From positions 1-64,000 of the forward strand of contig CAJJBK010000002.1 in the NCBI GenBank assembly GCA_905182415.1: 64,000 nt of DNA, read 5' to 3'. Made by a program: the position numbers and the translations under genes. Positions 7,753 to 37,070 of the stretch are shown here, one piece after another. Every line of letters starts with the position of its first letter. Position 1 is the first letter of the stretch. Under the pieces are notes generated by a model. That model saw only the letters and a program-made list of their open reading frames with translations, did no database searches and had not been told where the DNA came from. This stretch comes from an uncultured Woeseiaceae bacterium (GTDB lineage: Bacteria; Pseudomonadota; Gammaproteobacteria; Steroidobacterales; Woeseiaceae).

Positions 7753-7947
7753 TGTTACTGTTTATCCATAAATATAATAAATTTCAACTTTTTCTGTGTA
7801 ACTAATAAATCTAATACCAATAATTATTACTACAAAAATGTTCCATAGTCTGGCTATCATCTTGCAATAAAGTCTACTTCATTACATGATTAATTTTTAA
7901 GCTTTATAGTAAAATATGACCCCCTTAATAAAATATTAATCTTGATA

Positions 7948-9366
7948 ATGAGCGATATAGAAAAAAAATTTAATAAACGATACCCAAGATGGTTATCAAT
8001 TTTCATTCACTCCTTACGAGATAACGATGAAGACTTCACTAAAGCTCCACTAAGGATTGCTCTTCCCCTCCTAGCCATTCCTATGATGATAGAACTCAGT
8101 ATGGAAGCTATCTTTGCTGTGGTGGATATTACTTTCGTCTCTTTTTTAGGAACTGATGCAGTCGCGGCAGTTGGAATCACTGAAGCTCTAATAACAGTTG
8201 TTTATGCTATTTGCATGGGTATTGGGGTGACTGTTACTGCCATGGTAGCAAGAAGAATTGGCGCCAATAAACCTAAAGAAGCTGCAGAAATTACTGGACA
8301 GATAATTTGGATTGCTGGTGTTATATCAATAATAGTTGGATTAATTGGCTATTCTTTTGCTGCAGATTTACTTAAGTTACTTGGGGCCAGTAATGACGTT
8401 ATTAATATCGGCACCAGTTATACCGCCATCATATTTGGTGGATCGGCTAGTATCACGTACTTATTTTTACTGAATGCAGCTTTTCGTGGTGCTGGTGATG
8501 CCTCGATAGCATTTAAGGCCTTAGCACTCTCTAATGCAATAAATATTATTCTCGATCCTTGTCTTATTTTTGGACTGGGACCATTCCCAGAACTGGGAAT
8601 TACCGGTGCAGCAATTGCGACAACCATTGGTCGATCTATGGGCGTTCTTTATTTGGCACACACAATATTCAATGCTAATAATCGCCTACAACTTAGCGCC
8701 AACGATCTAGTAATTAAAATTAAAAATATAAAAATAATAATCCGCACATCGCTCTATGGAATTAGCCAATTTCTCATCTCAACATCGAGCTGGCTCATTC
8801 TTATCAAAATCATTGCTTTATTTGGAACAGCCCCTGTTGCGGCCTATACCATCGCCATGAGACTAATGGAATTTGTATGGTTACCTGTATGGGGATTAGG
8901 TAATGCAGCTGCCACATTAGTCGGCCAAAATATGGGAGCAAACCAACCTCAACGAGCCATAAGATCAGTTCAACTGACCATGAAATATGGATTGATCTTT
9001 ATGGTTGTTATTGGTGTTTTGCAATTTATCTTTGCCCATCAGATTATCAATTTACTAAGCAACGATGCTGAAGTCATTTATTATGGAGTTAACTGTCTCA
9101 GAATCATTGCTATTGGCTATCCAGCATTAGCGATTGGTATGATTATTGTGCAGTCATTAAATGGCGCTGGAGACTTAAAGTCACCTGCAATCATAAATTT
9201 CTTATGTTACTGGGTTTTACAAATTCCATTGGCTTATTGGCTTTCAACCAATACTGAATTAGAAGTTAATGGTGTATTCATTGGTTTACTGATTGCTGAA
9301 GTCACATTAACTATAATGGCATATGCAGTTTTCAAAAAAGGACACTGGCAAAAAATAAGTATTTAA
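7948..9366 (+). CDS. MATE family efflux transporter
   Basis: About 472 residues with twelve hydrophobic segments arranged as two similar halves, as in MATE cation/drug antiporters. Conserved pieces include PMMIELSMEAIFAVVDITFV in helix 1, MVARRIGANKPKEA between helices 2 and 3, and the matching LVGQNMGANQPQRA in the second half. ATG at 7948 is preferred over an in-frame TTG six bases upstream; neither has a strong ribosome-binding site. The next gene (ABC ATPase) begins 14 bases after the stop, so the pair is probably co-transcribed. The export substrate is unknown; multidrug or metabolite extrusion is the family role. Confidence 0.92.
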   Translation: MSDIEKKFNKRYPRWLSIFIHSLRDNDEDFTKAPLRIALPLLAIPMMIELSMEAIFAVVDITFVSFLGTDAVAAVGITEALITVVYAICMGIGVTVTAMVARRIGANKPKEAAEITGQIIWIAGVISIIVGLIGYSFAADLLKLLGASNDVINIGTSYTAIIFGGSASITYLFLLNAAFRGAGDASIAFKALALSNAINIILDPCLIFGLGPFPELGITGAAIATTIGRSMGVLYLAHTIFNANNRLQLSANDLVIKIKNIKIIIRTSLYGISQFLISTSSWLILIKIIALFGTAPVAAYTIAMRLMEFVWLPVWGLGNAAATLVGQNMGANQPQRAIRSVQLTMKYGLIFMVVIGVLQFIFAHQIINLLSNDAEVIYYGVNCLRIIAIGYPALAIGMIIVQSLNGAGDLKSPAIINFLCYWVLQIPLAYWLSTNTELEVNGVFIGLLIAEVTLTIMAYAVFKKGHWQKISI

Positions 9367-27414: not shown

Positions 27415-28932
27415 ATGGCTCAAGCTATAGACATACTAAGTCAAAATATATTTCTAAATCGTCTCAATGAAATGCGTGCCGCCGGTGGTAAAGCAATTAC
27501 AACCGGTATCAATGATGAAACCCTTAAAGAATTTTTAACCCATGACTTAGATCTTCAAAATGCTATTCATCATGGTTTCTCGAATTTCCAATCTCTCAAG
27601 CTCAAACAACCAGCATTAATTGAAGCTTCAGAAAAAAAACAAATAAGCATCACCCAAGAAAGCATTGTGAATTTTTATGCACAAGATATGGTAAACCCCT
27701 ATGTAGCCATAAGCGCTGCCGGCCCATGGATCGTGACCCTTAAAGGTGCGGTTATCTATGATTGTGGTGGTTACGGAATGCTTGGACTAGGACATACACC
27801 AGATATAGCACTTGATGCGATGAACCAACTGCATGTTATGGCCAATATTATGACTCCCTCAGTCAGTCAAATGAAATTTATTCAAACGCTCAAAATGGAG
27901 ATAGGTCACTCTAGAAAAAATAGTATAAATTTCACTGATTTTTGTTGTTTAAATAGTGGCTCCGAATCGGTTTCAATTGCGGCAAGATTAGCTGATGTAA
28001 ATGCAAAAGCATTAACATCAAAAGGTGCCATTCATGAAGGAAAAACCATCGGACGCTTAACCCTCAAAGGAAGCTTCCACGGTCGTACTGACAGACCAGC
28101 ACAATTTTCACATTCAACTCAAAAAAGCTACCAAGAACATTTAAAATCTTTTGAAAATAGTACCCTGATGACTGTGACACCAAATGATATTAATGAGTTG
28201 GAATCTATATTTAAAACTGCAGAAAAAGAAAATATTTTTATCGAAGCTTTCTTTATGGAGCCAGTAATGGGTGAAGGAAATCCCGGACAAGCTATTACTC
28301 CTGAGTTCTATAAAAAAGCCAGAGAGCTAACAAAAAATTATGGGACATTACTGCTGATTGATTCTATACAGGCGGGGCTTCGAGCTCATGGTGTTTTATC
28401 AATCATCGATTATCCTGGATTTCAGGAATTAGATTGTCCAGATATGGAAACATATTCAAAGGCATTGAATGCAGGTCAATATCCATTATCCGTTCTTGCT
28501 ATGACTGGCCAGGCTGCTAACCTATACAGATCTGGAATTTATGGAAATACCATGACTAGTAATCCTAGAGCCTTGGATGTAGCAGTGGCTGTAATTGAAA
28601 ATTTATCCCCTGAAATTAGAAAGAATATTCAAGATCGTGGCAATGAATTAGTCTCTAAGTTACATTCACTAACCATAGAGTTGGATGGGGACATTACTAA
28701 TGTCCAAGGTACCGGCCTTCTGGCAAGTTGTGAGTTAAACTCCCAATTCAAATGTTCAGGCTCAGAGAGTACTGAAGAATATTTAAGAAAAAATGGTCTT
28801 GGTGTAATCCATGGTGGTATCAACTCATTACGTTACACACCTCACTTTAATATGACCTCTGAAGAAGTTGATTTGGTCGTCATGCTCACTAAAGATGCTC
28901 TTTTAAATGGACCTAAAAAAGCTATTAATTAA
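27415..28932 (+). CDS. Class III PLP-dependent aminotransferase with N-terminal extension
   Basis: A fold-type I omega-aminotransferase of about 505 residues, longer than the usual 420-460. The extra roughly 90 residues at the N-terminus (from IDILSQNIFLNRLNEM to VNFYAQDM) precede the core, which begins near VIYDCGGYGMLGLGH. The core shows SGSESVSIAARLA, GSFHGRTDRPAQ, the PLP-ring Asp in LLLIDSIQAGLRAHG and the Schiff-base Lys349 in TYSKALNAGQYPLSV. ATG 27415 is chosen over an ATG six bases upstream because AGGGG sits at proper distance. Two overlapping TATAAT hexamers lie at 27381-27391. The amino donor is not assignable; the cytochrome c gene overlaps its 3' end. Confidence 0.88.
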   Translation: MAQAIDILSQNIFLNRLNEMRAAGGKAITTGINDETLKEFLTHDLDLQNAIHHGFSNFQSLKLKQPALIEASEKKQISITQESIVNFYAQDMVNPYVAISAAGPWIVTLKGAVIYDCGGYGMLGLGHTPDIALDAMNQLHVMANIMTPSVSQMKFIQTLKMEIGHSRKNSINFTDFCCLNSGSESVSIAARLADVNAKALTSKGAIHEGKTIGRLTLKGSFHGRTDRPAQFSHSTQKSYQEHLKSFENSTLMTVTPNDINELESIFKTAEKENIFIEAFFMEPVMGEGNPGQAITPEFYKKARELTKNYGTLLLIDSIQAGLRAHGVLSIIDYPGFQELDCPDMETYSKALNAGQYPLSVLAMTGQAANLYRSGIYGNTMTSNPRALDVAVAVIENLSPEIRKNIQDRGNELVSKLHSLTIELDGDITNVQGTGLLASCELNSQFKCSGSESTEEYLRKNGLGVIHGGINSLRYTPHFNMTSEEVDLVVMLTKDALLNGPKKAIN

Positions 28933-29332
28933 TAGATTAAGCGGTTTTAATCGGACTTTTTTACTCTTATTAGCGTTAAGTCTCGCTGGTCTTTCTTTTG
29001 CGGATGATGCTCCTTCAACCAATGACAAGATATACTCAAAAAAACAGGCAAAAACTGGAGAAGCCCTTTACAAAAATAATTGCTTAATTTGTCATAACAA
29101 AAAGTATTTTCGACCAGTATTTAAAACGTGGGAGAATCAATCCTTAGGCACATTTTTTTTAGTAATGAGCTCATCCATGCCAGAGAATAATCCTGGCTCC
29201 TTGGTTCACCAAGAATATATCGATATATTGGCTTATATATTGTCACTCAACCGATACTCTTCAGGGAAAGAAGAATTATCTAATTCTGTTGATGATCTTA
29301 ATTTAATTACTATACAGCCAAGAAAAAAATAA
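28907..29332 (+). CDS. Periplasmic monoheme cytochrome c
   Basis: A 141-residue protein with a signal peptide (hydrophobic TFLLLLALSLAGLSFA, cleavage before DD) and one covalent heme site, CLICH. The probable axial Met lies in MSSSMPENNPGSL, followed by YIDILAYILSLN. This short c-type domain with MPxxNPGSL...YxDILAYIL closely resembles the cytochromes that accept electrons from PQQ-dependent alcohol/sugar dehydrogenases, and one such dehydrogenase is encoded 8 kb downstream. The gene overlaps the aminotransferase by 26 bases in another frame; no ribosome-binding site is obvious, so it may be translated by coupling. Confidence 0.9.
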   Translation: MDLKKLLINRLSGFNRTFLLLLALSLAGLSFADDAPSTNDKIYSKKQAKTGEALYKNNCLICHNKKYFRPVFKTWENQSLGTFFLVMSSSMPENNPGSLVHQEYIDILAYILSLNRYSSGKEELSNSVDDLNLITIQPRKK

Positions 29333-29507
29333 ATATTACCTATTAGATATCTATTAATCTCGGTGAATGTAACAAAATACAAGATAAATTAGATCTATTG
29401 GTAATTATGAATAAATAATTTGTTAAGCATTACAAAGAAATGTTAAGGTCATGCTATAAGTATTTATTAATTAAGATTCAAATAAAATCAAAGTATATGG
29501 GGTGGAA

Positions 29508-30854
29508 ATGAGTAAATTAATTCAATTAGACAGAAGATCTTTTCTAAAAAGCGCTAGCCTGACTGCTGTTGGTGGATCATTAGCGAGCGTTACTAGTATT
29601 GGATCTGCTGCAGAAACGGGTCGTGGTGGCATCAAAAATGGTAAATTTAATTTCGATGAAATTTATGATCGTGATGGCACTGGCAATATTAAATGGGATT
29701 CGCAATACGCAAGATTTGGAGCGGAAAATATTGATGTTGGAATGGGTATTGCTGATATGGATTTTCGTGGCTCTCCTGCTATCAAAGAAGCTCTCGATAA
29801 AAGAATTCAACACAATAACTGGGGTTATGAAGATCTTAGAAAATCTTATATCGAATCTATTGTTCAATGGAATAGCGAGCGACATGGCTACGAATTAGAT
29901 CCAGCGACAGTTAAAATATCATCGGGCGTCCATACCCCATTGATTGCAGCTTTGAATGCAGTTACCAAACCAAATACGAAAGTTCTATTAAATACTCCTA
30001 CCTATAATGGCTTTTATGGCGATCTTCGCTGGAGTAGAACCCAAATTAATGACAGTGAAATGTACAAGGATGATGATGGCGTCTATCACATTGATTGGGA
30101 TGATTTTGAAGCAAAAATGACACCTGATACTTACGCTTTTATCTTGTGTAACCCCCAAAACCCAACCGGGAACATGTGGTCGGAAGAAGATTTATTAAAA
30201 ATGGGTGAGCTCTGCCTTAAAAAAGGTATTGTTGTCCTCGCTGATGAGATCCATTGCGATTTTGTAATGAAAGGTCAAAAATACATACCATTTGCAAGCT
30301 TACCGGATAAGGCAATTGTGAATAATAGTGTCACTATGAAAGCAATCAGCAAAACCTTTAGCCTTGCTTCTATGAAAAGTGCTTATTACTTCTCAACCAA
30401 TCCAGTGCTTTTAGATAGAGTAAATTATATGCATCGTGCTGATATAAATTCACTCGGTATAGTAGCCAATGAAGCAGCTTATCGATATGGCGCAGAATGG
30501 TTTGATCAACTTCTACCGTATATCGATGAAAATCATAATTTTGCTGAAGCTTACATAAAAGAAAAATTACCACTTGTAAAATATAAAAAAGCACAAGGCA
30601 CCTACCTTGCTTGGCTTGACGTAAGCGCTGTCGGAGAGGCTATCGATGCCGAAAAACATGCCAGTGACGAAGGAATGAAAAGCGATACTCACTATCTCGA
30701 AAAATGGTTTGTTGATAATGCAAAAGTTCAACTTAACCCAGGTATTGGTTATGGAACAGGCGGCAATGGTCACATGAGAATGAATCTTGGTACGCCAAGA
30801 CCATTGATCAAACAGGCAATTGATAACCTGGCTGATGCATTAAGTAACGTTTAG
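29508..30854 (+). CDS. Tat-exported aminotransferase / C-S lyase (PatB/MalY-like)
   Basis: A fold-type I PLP enzyme of 448 residues that begins with a twin-arginine signal: DRRSFLKSA at residues 8-16, a hydrophobic stretch and a GSAAE cleavage region. The core carries SSGVHTPL, NPQNPTG, LADEIHCDFV (pyridine Asp) and the Schiff-base Lys282 in AISKTFSLASMKSAY, as in PatB/MalY cystathionine-beta-lyase-like enzymes. Export through Tat would let it fold with PLP before translocation. ATG 29508 is preferred to GTG 29502 because GGGG lies 5 bases upstream. A strong terminator follows. Periplasmic location is predicted, not shown; substrate unknown. Confidence 0.9.
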   Translation: MSKLIQLDRRSFLKSASLTAVGGSLASVTSIGSAAETGRGGIKNGKFNFDEIYDRDGTGNIKWDSQYARFGAENIDVGMGIADMDFRGSPAIKEALDKRIQHNNWGYEDLRKSYIESIVQWNSERHGYELDPATVKISSGVHTPLIAALNAVTKPNTKVLLNTPTYNGFYGDLRWSRTQINDSEMYKDDDGVYHIDWDDFEAKMTPDTYAFILCNPQNPTGNMWSEEDLLKMGELCLKKGIVVLADEIHCDFVMKGQKYIPFASLPDKAIVNNSVTMKAISKTFSLASMKSAYYFSTNPVLLDRVNYMHRADINSLGIVANEAAYRYGAEWFDQLLPYIDENHNFAEAYIKEKLPLVKYKKAQGTYLAWLDVSAVGEAIDAEKHASDEGMKSDTHYLEKWFVDNAKVQLNPGIGYGTGGNGHMRMNLGTPRPLIKQAIDNLADALSNV

Positions 30855-30874: not shown

Positions 30875-30907
30875 AAAAAAGCACTTGCCTTTGGCAGGTG
30901 CTTTTTT
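30875..30907. terminator. Bidirectional rho-independent terminator
   Basis: AAAAAAGCACTTGCC, a TTT loop and GGCAGGTGCTTTTTT form a nine-pair stem (one G:T) flanked by A and T tracts on both sides. It lies between the convergent Tat-exported aminotransferase and the M20-like gene, and overlaps the latter's stop codon. It should terminate transcription from both directions. Confidence 0.92.
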
Positions 30908-32261
30908 ATTTGGACCATCCTTGTACGGTGTCTATAAGGACAGCCGTCAATTTAACCAAGTCGTCTATATCAACCCACTCATTAGGGCCATAGAAATTAC
31001 CTGCCAATGAACCAATACCGTAAGCAGGAACATTAAGTAACCGAATTGGATAACGAATGTCTCCTGCATAATGATTTGGATAAGATTTTGGCTCTTGACC
31101 TGTAATGCTTGCTATTGAATCTCTCAATATAATACTTTCAGGTCCTTGCCATTCAGCTTCACCAGGATTCGTCCGATAACCCTTAGCTATTACACTCACT
31201 TCAAATTTTTCTGTATCCGGAGAAATATCTTTAATAAAATTTTCCGCTTCAACTGTTATCTGTTTTAATAATGCCGACCAATTATTTTTACCTGTAAATT
31301 TCAATCTCACATTTGCTATCGCTTTATCTGCTACCGAACCAATACGGTCACCACCAGATATTCTTCCAAGATTAACTTCAGTATCAGTTAAAATGTTCGA
31401 CCTCAAATGGTTTAAAAGTTCTACGCAAGCATTAATCGCATTGCCTCCTTCATCCCAAGCAGCTGAATCAATAGATCCAATTTCCATGGACCTACCTCGC
31501 CAGCCCTCCACCTTGATTTCAAGATCAAATACCCCTTGAACTGCATTTTTAATATCTTCTAAGCCTCTCCCTGTTTCTGCTGGATGTGCGTAAAGTACTG
31601 CTTTTATATTATGGTCAGATTTCCTAATCCTTTCGAAAATCGGGAGACTACCTCGACTGCCACCCCCTTTTCCATGCAAACTCATCACGACTGGCAGCGG
31701 ACCATTATTTTCACTTAATACTTTTGCAGCTATGAGCATAGCTGCCACACCACCTTTATCATCTGCTGTACCTAAACCGTACATTCGATTATTTTTAACA
31801 ACTGGCTTATACGGATCAGTATCCCATCCATCTTCCACTGTATGAGTATCTATATGTGAAAAAATAGCACAATCATTAGACTTTTCTTGCTCTGGCCAGC
31901 CTACAATATTGACAAATGGACCGTCGCTCGGTGGATTTGGAGTCATGTATTCATCATGGTGTTGATATTTACTTGGCCTGTCTTCAGATTGTTCAACTCT
32001 ATAGGGAAGCTTGCTCAGATAATTTTTAACCAATTTTTGTGCCACTTCAGCTGATTCGCCGGTTTGACTCCTAATACTTACTAATTGACTCATTAATTCA
32101 ATTAATTCTGATCGTTTTGCTTCTGCAAAATTTAATGCAGCTGGGGTTGCAGAAAATACATTGGTTTGATTTAAGGCAGCGAAGCCAAGTGTCGCACTGG
32201 TCCCTATTACGAAATTCCGACGGGAAGTTTTGTTGTCATTCAATGGTTCATCTTGATTCAT
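30906..32261 (-). CDS. Tat-exported M20-fold hydrolase with altered metal-site residues
   Basis: A 451-residue protein with a twin-arginine signal (SRRNFVIG, Arg14-Arg15) and an M20/ArgE-DapE fold. The first metal motif SHIDTH (His136, Asp138) and the bridging-Asp motif GTADDKGG (Asp168) are kept. The position of the catalytic Glu-Glu pair reads HGKGGGSRGS (Gly199-Gly200), the next ligand segment reads VLYAHPAE with His226 in place of the acidic residue, and the C-terminal His position reads GNFYGPNEWV with Tyr424. It may therefore use a different metal arrangement, a different reaction, or be a non-catalytic binding protein. It is the last gene of the hydantoinase operon, 19 bases after the racemase gene. 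Confidence 0.85.
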   Translation of the reverse strand: MNQDEPLNDNKTSRRNFVIGTSATLGFAALNQTNVFSATPAALNFAEAKRSELIELMSQLVSIRSQTGESAEVAQKLVKNYLSKLPYRVEQSEDRPSKYQHHDEYMTPNPPSDGPFVNIVGWPEQEKSNDCAIFSHIDTHTVEDGWDTDPYKPVVKNNRMYGLGTADDKGGVAAMLIAAKVLSENNGPLPVVMSLHGKGGGSRGSLPIFERIRKSDHNIKAVLYAHPAETGRGLEDIKNAVQGVFDLEIKVEGWRGRSMEIGSIDSAAWDEGGNAINACVELLNHLRSNILTDTEVNLGRISGGDRIGSVADKAIANVRLKFTGKNNWSALLKQITVEAENFIKDISPDTEKFEVSVIAKGYRTNPGEAEWQGPESIILRDSIASITGQEPKSYPNHYAGDIRYPIRLLNVPAYGIGSLAGNFYGPNEWVDIDDLVKLTAVLIDTVQGWSK

Positions 32262-32280: not shown

Positions 32281-32931
32281 TTAATTAATTAAATTATCAA
32301 CCGCAACCTCAACCGAGGTTTGAACAGGATCAATTACTTTGACTCCCAACTCTCTTTCAACAGCAGCTCGATGTTTTGCCAGTCCTGCACAGCCAAGGAT
32401 AATCATTTCTACCCTTTGTTTTTCTATTAAATCACGTCCCGATATTATGATCTTACTAAACGTACTTTTGTCACTTACCGCTTCATTGACGCTTATATTT
32501 AATGCGTTCTCCCCAATATAATAAGACTCTAAATTAAGTCCTTTAATATAATTTATATGCCTTTGTATCGACTCATCACCGAGCGCTATGACACCAAAGT
32601 TATGTCTCAATTTAGTACAAAATTTAACTGATGTTTCATGAATACCATAGATGGGTTTTTTAAATGTTTGTGTTGCCTCATTTAGTCCTGGATCAGAGTA
32701 ACAAGCAATAACAAAAGCATCATATTCACCAAGCTCATCTGAAATTTTATTAATAATTAAAGGCTCAACAAACTTAATATCCGCGTCAGTCTCTATGCCA
32801 AAAGGCGCTCCACTTAATGTAATAAAATCAACGCCAACACTTCCATTAGGACTATGATTATCAAATGAATCTTGCATCTTTTCAGTAACCAAGACATTAG
32901 AGTTTGGATTAATTACTAAAATTTTATGCAT
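32281..32931 (-). CDS. Asp/Glu/hydantoin racemase family protein
   Basis: A 216-residue cofactor-independent racemase, cytosolic. The two catalytic cysteines are in ACYSDPG (Cys77) and LGCAGLA (Cys181), the spacing and context of hydantoin/allantoin racemases (HyuE family), with the N-terminal INPNSN typical of that group. It starts by a TAATG one-base overlap with the stop of the hydantoinase gene, giving tight coupling. It probably racemises the five- or six-membered cyclic amide handled by that enzyme. Asp/Glu-type substrates are an alternative but less likely in this context. Confidence 0.9.
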   Translation of the reverse strand: MHKILVINPNSNVLVTEKMQDSFDNHSPNGSVGVDFITLSGAPFGIETDADIKFVEPLIINKISDELGEYDAFVIACYSDPGLNEATQTFKKPIYGIHETSVKFCTKLRHNFGVIALGDESIQRHINYIKGLNLESYYIGENALNISVNEAVSDKSTFSKIIISGRDLIEKQRVEMIILGCAGLAKHRAAVERELGVKVIDPVQTSVEVAVDNLIN

Positions 32932-34397
32932 TAAATTTCAATCTTTGTGCCAAAATTTTCTGTTGTATTTAACTCAGGTGCAAGTCTTCCTGGCATACCC
33001 GTACAATCAATTTTCTTTCGATGTATAAATTGCCCATCACCACGATCTGCTTTTAGCTTGTTATCCTCAATAATGATATTCCCTCTTTGAATTATCGTTT
33101 CAGGCCAACCAGTAACTTGCATGCCTTCATAAGGAGTAAAGTCCATATTGTCATGAATATCCTCTGCTGTGATTGTTTTTTTAATCTCAGGATTCCAAAT
33201 TGCGATGTCTGCATCCTTACCTTCAGTAATTGATCCTTTGCAATGATCCAAGCCATAAATTTTAGAGACATTGGTAGCTGCAAGAGCAACAAAATGATTA
33301 AGAGTAATCCGTTTCTTTATATACCCTTCTGAAAATAATAAAGGCAGTCTAGTTTCAATACCCGGTAAGCCATTTGCAATTTTAGTGAATGGTGGCTTTT
33401 CTCCAGCATGTAATTTACCCGTCTCATCAAAACGATAGGGGGCGTGATCTGATGAATAAACTTGAAATGTTCCATTTTGCAAACAACGCCATATCTCTTC
33501 TTGTGATGCCCTGTCTCTTAAGGGTGGGCTGCAACAAAATTGTGCTCCTTGCATATCAGGAAGATCCATAGTTTGGGCATTAAGAAACATATATTGAGGA
33601 CAAGTTTCACCAAAAACTTTTTGGCCATCATATCTAGCTTTAGCTATTATTCTAGCTCCAGCCTCAGTGGATACATGCACAATTAAAATTGGTGTATCAA
33701 TAAAACTCGATAATGCTATCGCTCGATTAATAGCTTCAGACTCAGCGGTACGCGGATGACTTAATGCGTGATACTTTGGTTCTTGGTGCGATCCTTCGAT
33801 TAGTTTTTCACTCATCCAATTTATCATGGCATTGTTTTCTGCATGAATCATAGTAAGCGCGCCCAATCTCTTAGCCGCTGACATAATATTTAACATTTGT
33901 TGATCATCTACTATCAATTTATCGTAAGTCATATAGATCTTAAATGAAGTGATACCTTGCTCAATAACAAGAGGTAATTCGTCGTTAATTACCTCATCTG
34001 TAGGATCCGATATGATGAGATGAAACGAATAGTCGATAACTGACTTTGGTTTTGCTCTTGAATGATAAAGCTCTAAGACATCTTGTAATTTTTGACCACG
34101 ATGCTGAGCTGCAAAAGGAATCAGGCAGGTATTACCTCCGAAAGCAGCAGAGACACTGCCTGAATAATAATCATCTGAGGTCATAACTCCACCAGACGAT
34201 TCTTGTTCTATATGGCAATGCGCTTCGATCCCACCCGGCAACACTAATTTCCCAGCAGCATCAATTTCTTTTTTGGCATCACCAATATTTTTTCCTATTG
34301 TTGTAATTAAGCCATCTTTGATGCCTATATCTGCATGAAATGTTTCGGTAGCATTTGCTACTGTGCCATTGGTTATCTTTAAATCAAATAAGTCCAT
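32931..34397 (-). CDS. D-hydantoinase/dihydropyrimidinase family amidohydrolase
   Basis: A 488-residue cytosolic zinc amidohydrolase that opens cyclic diamides such as hydantoins or dihydrouracil. All metal ligands of the family can be placed: His60 and His62 in EAHCHIE, carboxylated Lys153 in TSFKIYMTYD, His185 in MIHAENN, His241 in LIVHVSTEAG and Asp317 in SSDHAPY. Tyr158 of MTYD corresponds to the substrate-contact tyrosine. It is preceded 48 bases upstream by a DapA-like gene and overlaps the racemase start. The real substrate is not fixed: hydantoin derivatives, dihydropyrimidines and allantoin-like ureides are all possible. Confidence 0.92.
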   Translation of the reverse strand: MDLFDLKITNGTVANATETFHADIGIKDGLITTIGKNIGDAKKEIDAAGKLVLPGGIEAHCHIEQESSGGVMTSDDYYSGSVSAAFGGNTCLIPFAAQHRGQKLQDVLELYHSRAKPKSVIDYSFHLIISDPTDEVINDELPLVIEQGITSFKIYMTYDKLIVDDQQMLNIMSAAKRLGALTMIHAENNAMINWMSEKLIEGSHQEPKYHALSHPRTAESEAINRAIALSSFIDTPILIVHVSTEAGARIIAKARYDGQKVFGETCPQYMFLNAQTMDLPDMQGAQFCCSPPLRDRASQEEIWRCLQNGTFQVYSSDHAPYRFDETGKLHAGEKPPFTKIANGLPGIETRLPLLFSEGYIKKRITLNHFVALAATNVSKIYGLDHCKGSITEGKDADIAIWNPEIKKTITAEDIHDNMDFTPYEGMQVTGWPETIIQRGNIIIEDNKLKADRGDGQFIHRKKIDCTGMPGRLAPELNTTENFGTKIEI

Positions 34398-34445: not shown

Positions 34446-35381
34446 TCAATTAGTACCTAGATTTCTCTCGACACGTCCAATTATTCGGGATAATTCAGTA
34501 AGATCTTTGTCACTCATACGAGGTCCTGGATCCCTTACTTTCGAACAATCAATAGCGCCACGGCGAAATAATATCTCTTTTCTGATAGCTAAACCAAAAC
34601 CAGGTTGCTGCTCATATCGTACTAAAGGTAAATAGGTATCAAACAAATCTTCTGCAGCGTCGATTTTCCCTTTTTTGTGTAAATTATAGACTTCTACCAA
34701 CATTTCCGGATAAGCAAAACCCGTCATTGCACCATCTGCGCCTCGTTGTAATTCCTGAGGAAGATACAAACCACCATTACCTGTTAATACAGAAATCGGG
34801 CGAATGCCTCCATCTTGAATCGATGCTTTAACTTTAGATAGTTTATCTAAACCAGGCCACTCTTCATGCTTTAACATAACCAGTTGATTAAAATCATTGA
34901 CTAATCGATTAAATGTTTCTAATGAAATTTCTGATTTTGTTAGAAACGGATAATCCTGATAACACACGGGGATATCATCGCCTAGTGCATTAAATACATT
35001 CGAAAAATAGTTATATATTTTTGTTTCAGTGCCAAGACCCATGGGTGGGGCCACCATCACACCTGCAGCTCCCATCTCCATACTCATATTGGACAATTTC
35101 GCTAAATTACCAAGTCCTGCATTGGAAACACCGACAATTACCGGCACCTGTTGATTTACTTGCTTTAAAACAGTACTGATAAATAATTCAGACTCGCCTG
35201 GAGTAAGTTTAGGCGCTTCACCCATTACACCCAGAATAGTAATTCCATGAACTCCCTTCTCTATATAAAAATCAATGAGTTTTTTTGTGCTCTCTGTATC
35301 AAGTGCTCCAGATTCTTTAAAAGGTGTAGCTGAAATAATAAATACACCTTCGGCTGTTTCATCAAGCTTGTTATATAACAT
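34446..35381 (-). CDS. DapA/N-acetylneuraminate lyase family aldolase
   Basis: A 311-residue class I aldolase/dehydratase of the dihydrodipicolinate synthase superfamily. The pyruvate-type phosphate loop is GVMGEAPKLTPGE, the conserved tyrosine lies in VCYQDYP (Tyr141) and the Schiff-base Lys171 in VMLKHEEWPG. The sequence context (KHEEWPG, YQDYP) differs from true DapA, so a catabolic aldolase or hydratase is more likely than lysine synthesis. An AAGGATAA ribosome-binding site precedes the ATG. Its place between symporter and hydantoinase genes suggests it processes the carbon skeleton of the same imported compound. Confidence 0.88.
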   Translation of the reverse strand: MLYNKLDETAEGVFIISATPFKESGALDTESTKKLIDFYIEKGVHGITILGVMGEAPKLTPGESELFISTVLKQVNQQVPVIVGVSNAGLGNLAKLSNMSMEMGAAGVMVAPPMGLGTETKIYNYFSNVFNALGDDIPVCYQDYPFLTKSEISLETFNRLVNDFNQLVMLKHEEWPGLDKLSKVKASIQDGGIRPISVLTGNGGLYLPQELQRGADGAMTGFAYPEMLVEVYNLHKKGKIDAAEDLFDTYLPLVRYEQQPGFGLAIRKEILFRRGAIDCSKVRDPGPRMSDKDLTELSRIIGRVERNLGTN

Positions 35382-35412: not shown

Positions 35413-36822
35413 TTATTCAGCAATCTTTATATATTGCTTATTTTTATCAGTCAATTTGGTCGCATATTTATTCTCACCAGACATATAGTCACGCATTAAT
35501 TTAAGAAATACACCAATCAGAAATAACAATGCCACTAGATTAGGCAAGGCACTTAATGCGACTGAAATATTTGCCAGCATCCATAACTGATCAACATTAC
35601 TGATACCGGCAAATACAATCCCAGGTAAAAAATACAACCACTTAATAATGTTGAATATTTTTTTATTAAATAAATCGACCAAAGCGGTTTCAAAATATAC
35701 AAAAAAACCAATTTGCGTCGATAAACAAAAAGTCACAATAGCAATCGAGATAATCGCATTTGCAATCAACGGAGAATAATATGTGGCATATCCTTCCAAT
35801 AATAACTCAATACCCGAGCTGCCATTTTCGAGCACACCAGAACAAAGAATAATTAATGCCGTAATTGTGCAGACAACAGTGGTATCTATAAATACCTCTG
35901 CAGAACCCCATAGTCCCTGTAAAAATGGATGCTCAGTTTCTGCATTTGCATGCACCATAGGCGCCGTTCCTAAACCTGCCTCATTGGATAACATACCTCT
36001 TGCCATGCCCATTTGAATGGCTGACATAACAGCTGCTCCCGCAAAACCCCCCACCGCCGGAGCTGGAGCAAAAGCAAAGTGAAATATTTGAGAAAAAGCT
36101 TCAGGTATAGAAGAATAATTTGCCAATACAATAAAAAAACCACTCAATAAATAAATCAATGTCATTAATGGCACCAAAGCTTCACATACTTTTCCAATTC
36201 TTTGGATACCACCAACTGCAACAGTCAGTGTAATTAAACCCATTAAAGATGTAGCCAGATATGGATTGATATCATAACTTGCTTCTAAGGCACGACCGAC
36301 CGTATGAGCTTGCAGTAGCGATGAAGTAAAAATACAATTAACAATAATCCCGATACTAAAAAACGTCGCCAAAACCTTCCAACCCAACGCTTTTTTAATA
36401 TAGTACATAGGTCCGCCACGAATATTCCCACTGCCATCAACCTCTCTATAATGCACAGCAAGAGTGATCTCTGCCGCTTTTGTAATCATGCCAAAAAAAG
36501 CCATCACCCACATCCAAAAAATAGCTCCTGGACCACCTATTGATAAGGCGGTAGCAACACCTGCCATATTTCCCATGCCGACAGTACCAGCCAAGGAGGC
36601 AGTTGTAGCTTGAAAAGGTGAAATGCTCTTTTTTGATGTTTGTTTCTTTTCGTGAAAGATACGTCCCAATGTTTTACTAAAAATTAACTTGAAATAACGA
36701 ATTTGAAAAAAACGGGTTTTTACCGTTAAATAAATCGAAACAAAAGCAATAAAAGCCATCGTCCATGGGCCCCACAACCATTCACTCAATTGTCCGATAA
36801 ACTGTAAAAAATAATCAAACAT
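35413..36822 (-). CDS. AGCS family alanine/glycine:cation symporter
   Basis: A roughly 469-residue sodium symporter. Diagnostic blocks are GTVGMGNMAGVATAL in helix 3, GGPMYYIKKALGWK and the conserved EAGLGTAPMVHA loop; about eleven hydrophobic segments are present. ATG at 36822 is chosen because AAGGAA sits about 8 bases upstream; an in-frame ATG 30 bases earlier lacks such a site. As first gene of the five-gene minus-strand cluster it probably imports the amino acid or amino-acid-like substrate of the downstream enzymes. Confidence 0.93.
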   Translation of the reverse strand: MFDYFLQFIGQLSEWLWGPWTMAFIAFVSIYLTVKTRFFQIRYFKLIFSKTLGRIFHEKKQTSKKSISPFQATTASLAGTVGMGNMAGVATALSIGGPGAIFWMWVMAFFGMITKAAEITLAVHYREVDGSGNIRGGPMYYIKKALGWKVLATFFSIGIIVNCIFTSSLLQAHTVGRALEASYDINPYLATSLMGLITLTVAVGGIQRIGKVCEALVPLMTLIYLLSGFFIVLANYSSIPEAFSQIFHFAFAPAPAVGGFAGAAVMSAIQMGMARGMLSNEAGLGTAPMVHANAETEHPFLQGLWGSAEVFIDTTVVCTITALIILCSGVLENGSSGIELLLEGYATYYSPLIANAIISIAIVTFCLSTQIGFFVYFETALVDLFNKKIFNIIKWLYFLPGIVFAGISNVDQLWMLANISVALSALPNLVALLFLIGVFLKLMRDYMSGENKYATKLTDKNKQYIKIAE

Positions 36823-37070
36823 AGATTTATTCCTTAAATAGATATGTATCACACCTTAAGTTAAAAATTATTACAATCCAAATAAATAGAGTTTATAAAA
36901 AATAATACGTTAATTAGATATAGTGATAAATACACTTTACATATTGAAATTATATTAGTTAAGGTTTAATTTTTAGCCAGTTGGGGTAGACTCAATGTAG
37001 TATAAATAAATTTAAAATAAATTAGTAATCATTCCAAATGGACCTTTGAAACTGTATTAGGGGAAATAAT

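Follow-up and report, generated by a model that had tools for sequence, protein, structure and literature searches.

The M20 peptidases form a very large family, whose members are named metallopeptidases or deacylases by annotation pipelines on the fold alone. The window (the whole stretch of 64,000 nt of Woeseiaceae DNA analysed here) encodes at 30906-32261 a protein of this fold in which the majority of the catalytic residues have been exchanged, and the question raised by this locus is whether such a protein is still a metal-dependent peptidase or deacylase, a different enzyme, or a protein that only binds its ligand.

The open reading frame at 30906-32261 had been taken as a real one in the original prediction, and it is, with the strand corrected to minus; it starts with ATG and encodes 451 aa. 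In the comparison with Pfam, both Peptidase_M20 (PF01546, 1.3e-20) and M20_dimer (PF07687, 6e-7) were found over their cut-offs, hence a catalytic M20 domain with an inserted dimerisation domain, which places the protein in M20 at the level of fold or superfamily. Among the NCBIfam M20 models the protein was well under every listed cut-off, the top one being TIGR01910 with 101.6 bits against a cut-off of 217.6, and it thus fell outside the DapE/ArgE deacylases as defined by TIGR01910 and the DapE equivalogs at their curated cut-offs. The AlphaFold2 model had a mean pLDDT of 76.7 and a pTM of 0.76, with low confidence for residues 1-38 and pLDDT <50 for the active-site loops 395-397 and 418-423. 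A fold search with this model returned DapE with Z 33.9 over 358 residues, nearly the whole chain, and also, over a near-complete chain, carboxypeptidase G2 (CPG2) with Z 32.4 and 5-nitroanthranilate aminohydrolase with Z 30.4. By sequence profile and by model, the protein shares the M20 (DapE/CPG2) fold, as had been claimed.

The active-site residues were mapped by a profile alignment to Haemophilus DapE (HiDapE, E 2.8e-16) and by hhalign against 29 DapE-like sequences (E 2.5e-18); the two alignments agree, and the key loop is aligned without gaps. All the positions that follow are on the minus strand. The HxD motif is kept as H136-I-D138 (31848-31856), invariant and aligned to that of HiDapE, with His136 as ligand of metal site 1. 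The bridging Asp had been numbered 168, which was off by one: in both alignments D167, in the invariant pair D167-D168 (31758-31763), falls in the column of HiDapE D100, and D168 is a second, extra Asp. In place of the DEE motif there is the loop H196-GKGGGSRG-S205 (31647-31676), which is glycine-rich, basic and, from the secondary structure of the model, at the N-terminus of a helix. The DEE column reads H196-G197-K198, i.e. the catalytic base E134 is replaced by G197 and the site-2 ligand E135 by K198. H226, in the stretch H226-P-A-E229 (31575-31586), stands at the site-1 ligand Glu (HiDapE E163), and Y424 (30990-30992) stands at the C-terminal ligand His (HiDapE H349), both invariant; the rebuilt Glu-Glu site and these two substitutions were all read correctly in the original prediction. 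The stretch H397-Y-A-G-D401-I-R403 (31053-31073) is a family-specific form of the GGTSDGRF loop of DapE. A further change, beyond those listed before, is the loss of the dimer-domain His (H194 in DapE): no conserved His was present at or near this site, and the adjoining loop is shortened. An active-site role of this His has been discussed for DapE and aminoacylase-1 (PMC4012986).

With respect to DapE/ArgE deacylases and CPG2 (PDB 7lgp, 4ppz, 1cg2), the protein is therefore alike in the whole-chain fold (Z 32-34), the HxD motif, the bridging Asp, the dimerisation domain and the Asp-x-Arg of the SDGR/GDIR loop, whereas it differs in having HGK for DEE, His226 for the site-1 Glu, Tyr424 for the site-2 His, no dimer-domain His, a Tat-type signal and scores under all the listed NCBIfam cut-offs. 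As regards the catalytic definition of M20, the HxD motif and the bridging Asp are present (H136, D138, D167); the Glu-Glu pair (G197-K198 in 20 of 20 sequences), the acidic site-1 ligand and the C-terminal His (H226 and Y424) and the active-site His of the dimerisation domain are absent. Since the fold is shared but the catalytic definition fails, current evidence does not justify an annotation as metallopeptidase or deacylase, and for a clade in which Glu-Glu, site-1 ligand, C-terminal His and dimer-domain His are exchanged, names given by fold can be wrong. Because most catalytic residues are replaced by another set, identical in every member, the family probably does a different job from that of the two-zinc peptidases.

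As a conservation set we considered 20 distinct sequences, represented by that of the window and homologues 50-98% identical from Woeseiaceae, Bacteroidota and one alphaproteobacterial record. Homologues came from the genus of the window, from other Woeseiaceae, from one alphaproteobacterial MAG and from records with the labels Cyclobacteriaceae, Flammeovirgaceae, Cytophagales and Maribacter; from the sequences, this is a small family with predicted export, scattered among bacteria. The loop H-G-K-G-G-G-[SG]-R-G-S and the same replacements were present in all 20, in which H136, D138, D167, D168, H196, G197, K198, G199-G201, R203, H226, H397, D401, R403 and Y424 are invariant. GKGGGSRG had been proposed as a family hallmark and proved to be one, S202 being its sole variable position (18 S, 2 G). 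In fact, 135 of the 407 positions past residue 45, about one third, are invariant in the family alignment, so the invariance of any single position is unremarkable; the telling part is that the replaced catalytic positions never reverted. The values of dN/dS between family pairs were about 0.02-0.19, with dS saturated in several pairs, and by this measure the family is under purifying selection. The possibility of a frameshift, already dismissed in the original prediction, and those of decay or assembly error are ruled out by changes common to 20 distinct sequences and by the low dN/dS.

In the tree the family is one clade (support 0.81) on a long stem of length 1.18, and every canonical DapE-like M20 protein that the class yielded had DEE, with the Glu and the His. 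As the rebuilt site is invariant in 20 sequences while the canonical M20 proteins of the class show DEE, we considered it a family hallmark rather than the outcome of chance or of a frameshift. Homologues in which this site still has a normal Glu-Glu motif would have spoken against a rebuilt site and were sought between the clade and DapE: there was none in 369 genomes of the class, for each of which the first 4 candidates were scored, and none in 398 genomes of the phylum searched at 1e-20. With the same profile, the best non-family match in the 369 genomes reached 55.6 bits versus about 725-815 for members. The family is rare: it is carried by 13 of 107 Woeseiaceae genomes, and in the 398-genome draw of the phylum the window's own genome was the sole carrier (1e-20). 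Matches on plasmids were 23-27% identical and mostly ArgE/DapE by annotation, and no family homologues were found in viral contigs. The string HGKGGGSRGS was found in none of the papers searched.

Residues 1-38 (32148-32261, minus strand), which are those of low confidence in the model, form a Tat-type signal, represented by SRRNFV and a hydrophobic stretch. R14, R15 and F17 are invariant in the 17 family sequences that were aligned here, and the source genome encodes TatC; a twin arginine followed by a hydrophobic stretch, in a genome with a Tat system, is what is considered a Tat substrate, which bears out the signal called at first. The protein is predicted from this to be exported via Tat, and it is plausible that a putative cofactor is loaded inside, before export.

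The M20-fold gene is the last of a cluster on the minus strand, with intergenic gaps no longer than about 50 bases, whose order is: an AgcS-type Na+/amino-acid symporter (35413-36852; TIGR00835, 403 bits, cut-off 273), a DHDPS/aldolase-family protein (34446-35381; PF00701, 1.6e-30) with a candidate Schiff-base Lys in LKHE, a D-hydantoinase/dihydropyrimidinase with intact metal-site motifs (32931-34397; TIGR02033, 547 bits, cut-off 393) and an Asp/Glu/hydantoin racemase with both catalytic Cys motifs, ACYSDPG and LGCAG, intact (32281-32931; PF01177, 5.8e-41). From this arrangement the genes would be co-transcribed; in the promoter and terminator scan, counts were lower than in shuffles. The cluster was identical in all the five loci of the window's genus that were examined (L003-L007). 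Beyond this genus the M20-fold gene is without adjoining hydantoinase genes and its neighbours vary, hence the operon may be a poor guide to the ancestral role. Three distant loci have, within a few kb of the gene, M24-family peptidases whose N-termini are signal-like (L010:1092-2513, L015:7382-8863, L018:2256-3749 and 7843-9348), the copies of L010 and L015 being 65% identical. DUF885 proteins lie near the gene in L009 and L018, and L008 and L013 contain homologous proteins; hydrolases of the M24 and DUF885 types with N-terminal signal-like stretches accompany the gene in several distant loci.

Our preferred reading, to which we assign a probability of about 0.5, is that of a one-metal enzyme on the M20 fold, exported by Tat, whose substrate would be a small N-substituted amino acid or peptide; Lys198 and Tyr424 would replace the ligands of the second metal, and the loop would hold an anion. 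In VcDapE the Zn1 ligands are H68, D101 and E164, and those of Zn2 are D101, E136 and one His (PMC4012986). One metal is proposed because the Zn1 set is kept (with Glu changed to His) and both private Zn2 ligands are lost, so a two-metal peptidase centre would have been converted to a one-metal centre in a distinct, conserved clade. Precisely, the His, the bridging Asp and the Glu of DapE site 1 would persist as His136/Asp167/His226 and site 2 would be gone; with Lys198 in the place of its Glu and Tyr424 in that of its His, ammonium and phenol groups would occupy the positions of the second metal's ligands. The GKGGGSRG turn at the helix start could hold the carboxylate of the substrate or another anion. 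As the Glu base and the dimer-domain His are both lacking, another base would be needed for the activated water, and the candidates are H196, H397, D168 and E229, all invariant. Most likely the substrate, probably an amino-acid derivative, would be hydrolysed or otherwise cleaved outside the cytoplasm; in the genus of the window, the AgcS symporter would take up the product, which would then pass to the hydantoinase, racemase and aldolase-like enzymes.

This one-metal reading is supported by the full-length fold match to DapE and CPG2, the 20/20 replacements, the dN/dS range, the invariant Tat-type motif, the tight cluster, in which the hydantoinase and racemase motifs are intact and which is kept in five loci of the genus, and the M24/DUF885-type hydrolases in several distant loci. 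We also counted as support the fold match to 5-nitroanthranilate aminohydrolase, a non-peptidase on the M20 fold. This enzyme works with a single labile metal. We compared it by fold and sequence score only (PDB 5k8m-5k8p, Z 29-30), and the sequence relation is weak (E 0.16), with no reason to expect the same substrate. A bolder extension, which we advance tentatively, would be a new activity on the M20 scaffold, namely a Tat-exported one-metal hydrolase or lyase using a lysine ammonium for the second metal, in marine Gammaproteobacteria and Bacteroidota, with a substrate linked to the use of hydantoins or amino-acid derivatives.

The losses of the base Glu, of the metal ligand pair and of the dimer-domain His are also pseudoenzyme-like and count against the preferred reading. 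The main rival is in fact a pseudoenzyme or solute-binding protein in which hydrolysis is lost and the GKGGGSRG loop binds an anionic ligand in the periplasm (an amino-acid derivative, a peptide or a hydantoin product), to deliver it to AgcS or to sense it. This is possible though rather doubtful: replacement of the base Glu, of both site-2 residues and of the dimer-domain His, a glycine-rich basic loop at a helix N-terminus and a gene that closes a cluster opened by a transporter gene all agree with it, but a pure binding protein need not keep the invariant site-1 set H136/D167/H226 plus D138, many further pocket residues are invariant, and AgcS symporters are not known to need binding proteins. 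A review of metallopeptidase pseudoenzymes describes no M20 family case. The clade is a natural test case for how a binding protein or a one-metal enzyme may arise from a two-metal hydrolase. A conventional binuclear M20 peptidase with H196, E229, H397 and D168 as substitute ligands or base appears very unlikely: all four are invariant, and the alignment places them close to the pocket, but both private site-2 positions are occupied, in a gap-free alignment, by Lys and Tyr, which are non-ligands. The alignment suggests that only the DapE Zn1 site still has its full ligand set, and for this reason the loss of the second metal fits better than a new two-metal site.

A marine Woeseiaceae genus with a hydantoinase operon also raises the question of whether N-carbamoyl amino acids are cleaved there, and by which enzyme. 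The family models used detected no recognised N-carbamoyl-amino-acid hydrolase in the window's own genome, despite its hydantoinase and hydantoin racemase, and the M20-fold protein might be a stand-in for HyuC on the hydantoinase product. The gene occupies the place of HyuC in a hyu-like operon, the genome, 99.4% complete, lacks an M20C carbamoylase (no TIGR01879 match), and the three free-standing nitrilase-family proteins scanned resembled AguB, deaminated glutathione amidase and Nit6803, although AguB could be promiscuous. The M20C amidases (the N-carbamoyl-L-amino-acid hydrolase HyuC and allantoate amidohydrolase; TIGR01879) share the M20 fold (Z about 26), are cytoplasmic and have a His at the site-1 Glu position, but keep the Glu-Glu motif and the C-terminal His (aligned L079 sequence) and, with an hhalign probability of 0.3%, have no profile relationship closer than the general fold, so that M20C membership was ruled out. 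Moreover, the M20-fold protein carries an export signal and the hydantoinase does not, and its homologues outside the genus lie away from hydantoinases, several of those genomes also having M20C enzymes; we consider this role unlikely.

Other genes around the family were also observed. At 29502-30854 (plus strand), convergent with the M20-fold gene, there is a class I/II PLP aminotransferase or PatB C-S lyase-like gene (TIGR04350, 338.8 bits, cut-off 340); its product has a twin-arginine signal too, and the gene occupies the same position in L003-L007. Also conserved in these loci is the gene of a small c-type cytochrome whose N-terminus is signal-like (28907-29332, plus strand), overlapping the last part of the gene for a class III aminotransferase. 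Three Woeseiaceae loci, L008, L009 and L013, share two neighbours of the M20-fold gene, a DUF885-like protein (76-78% identity) and one resembling alpha/beta-hydrolases. L020-L022, considered as candidate members, were rejected as distant M20 proteins. The planctomycete proteins L020:4585-6237 and L021:2097-3341 (plus strand) have AHDLHEAPWGLG at the DEE site and keep the C-terminal His (GQHT.NEWVD), and represent another non-standard M20 active site.
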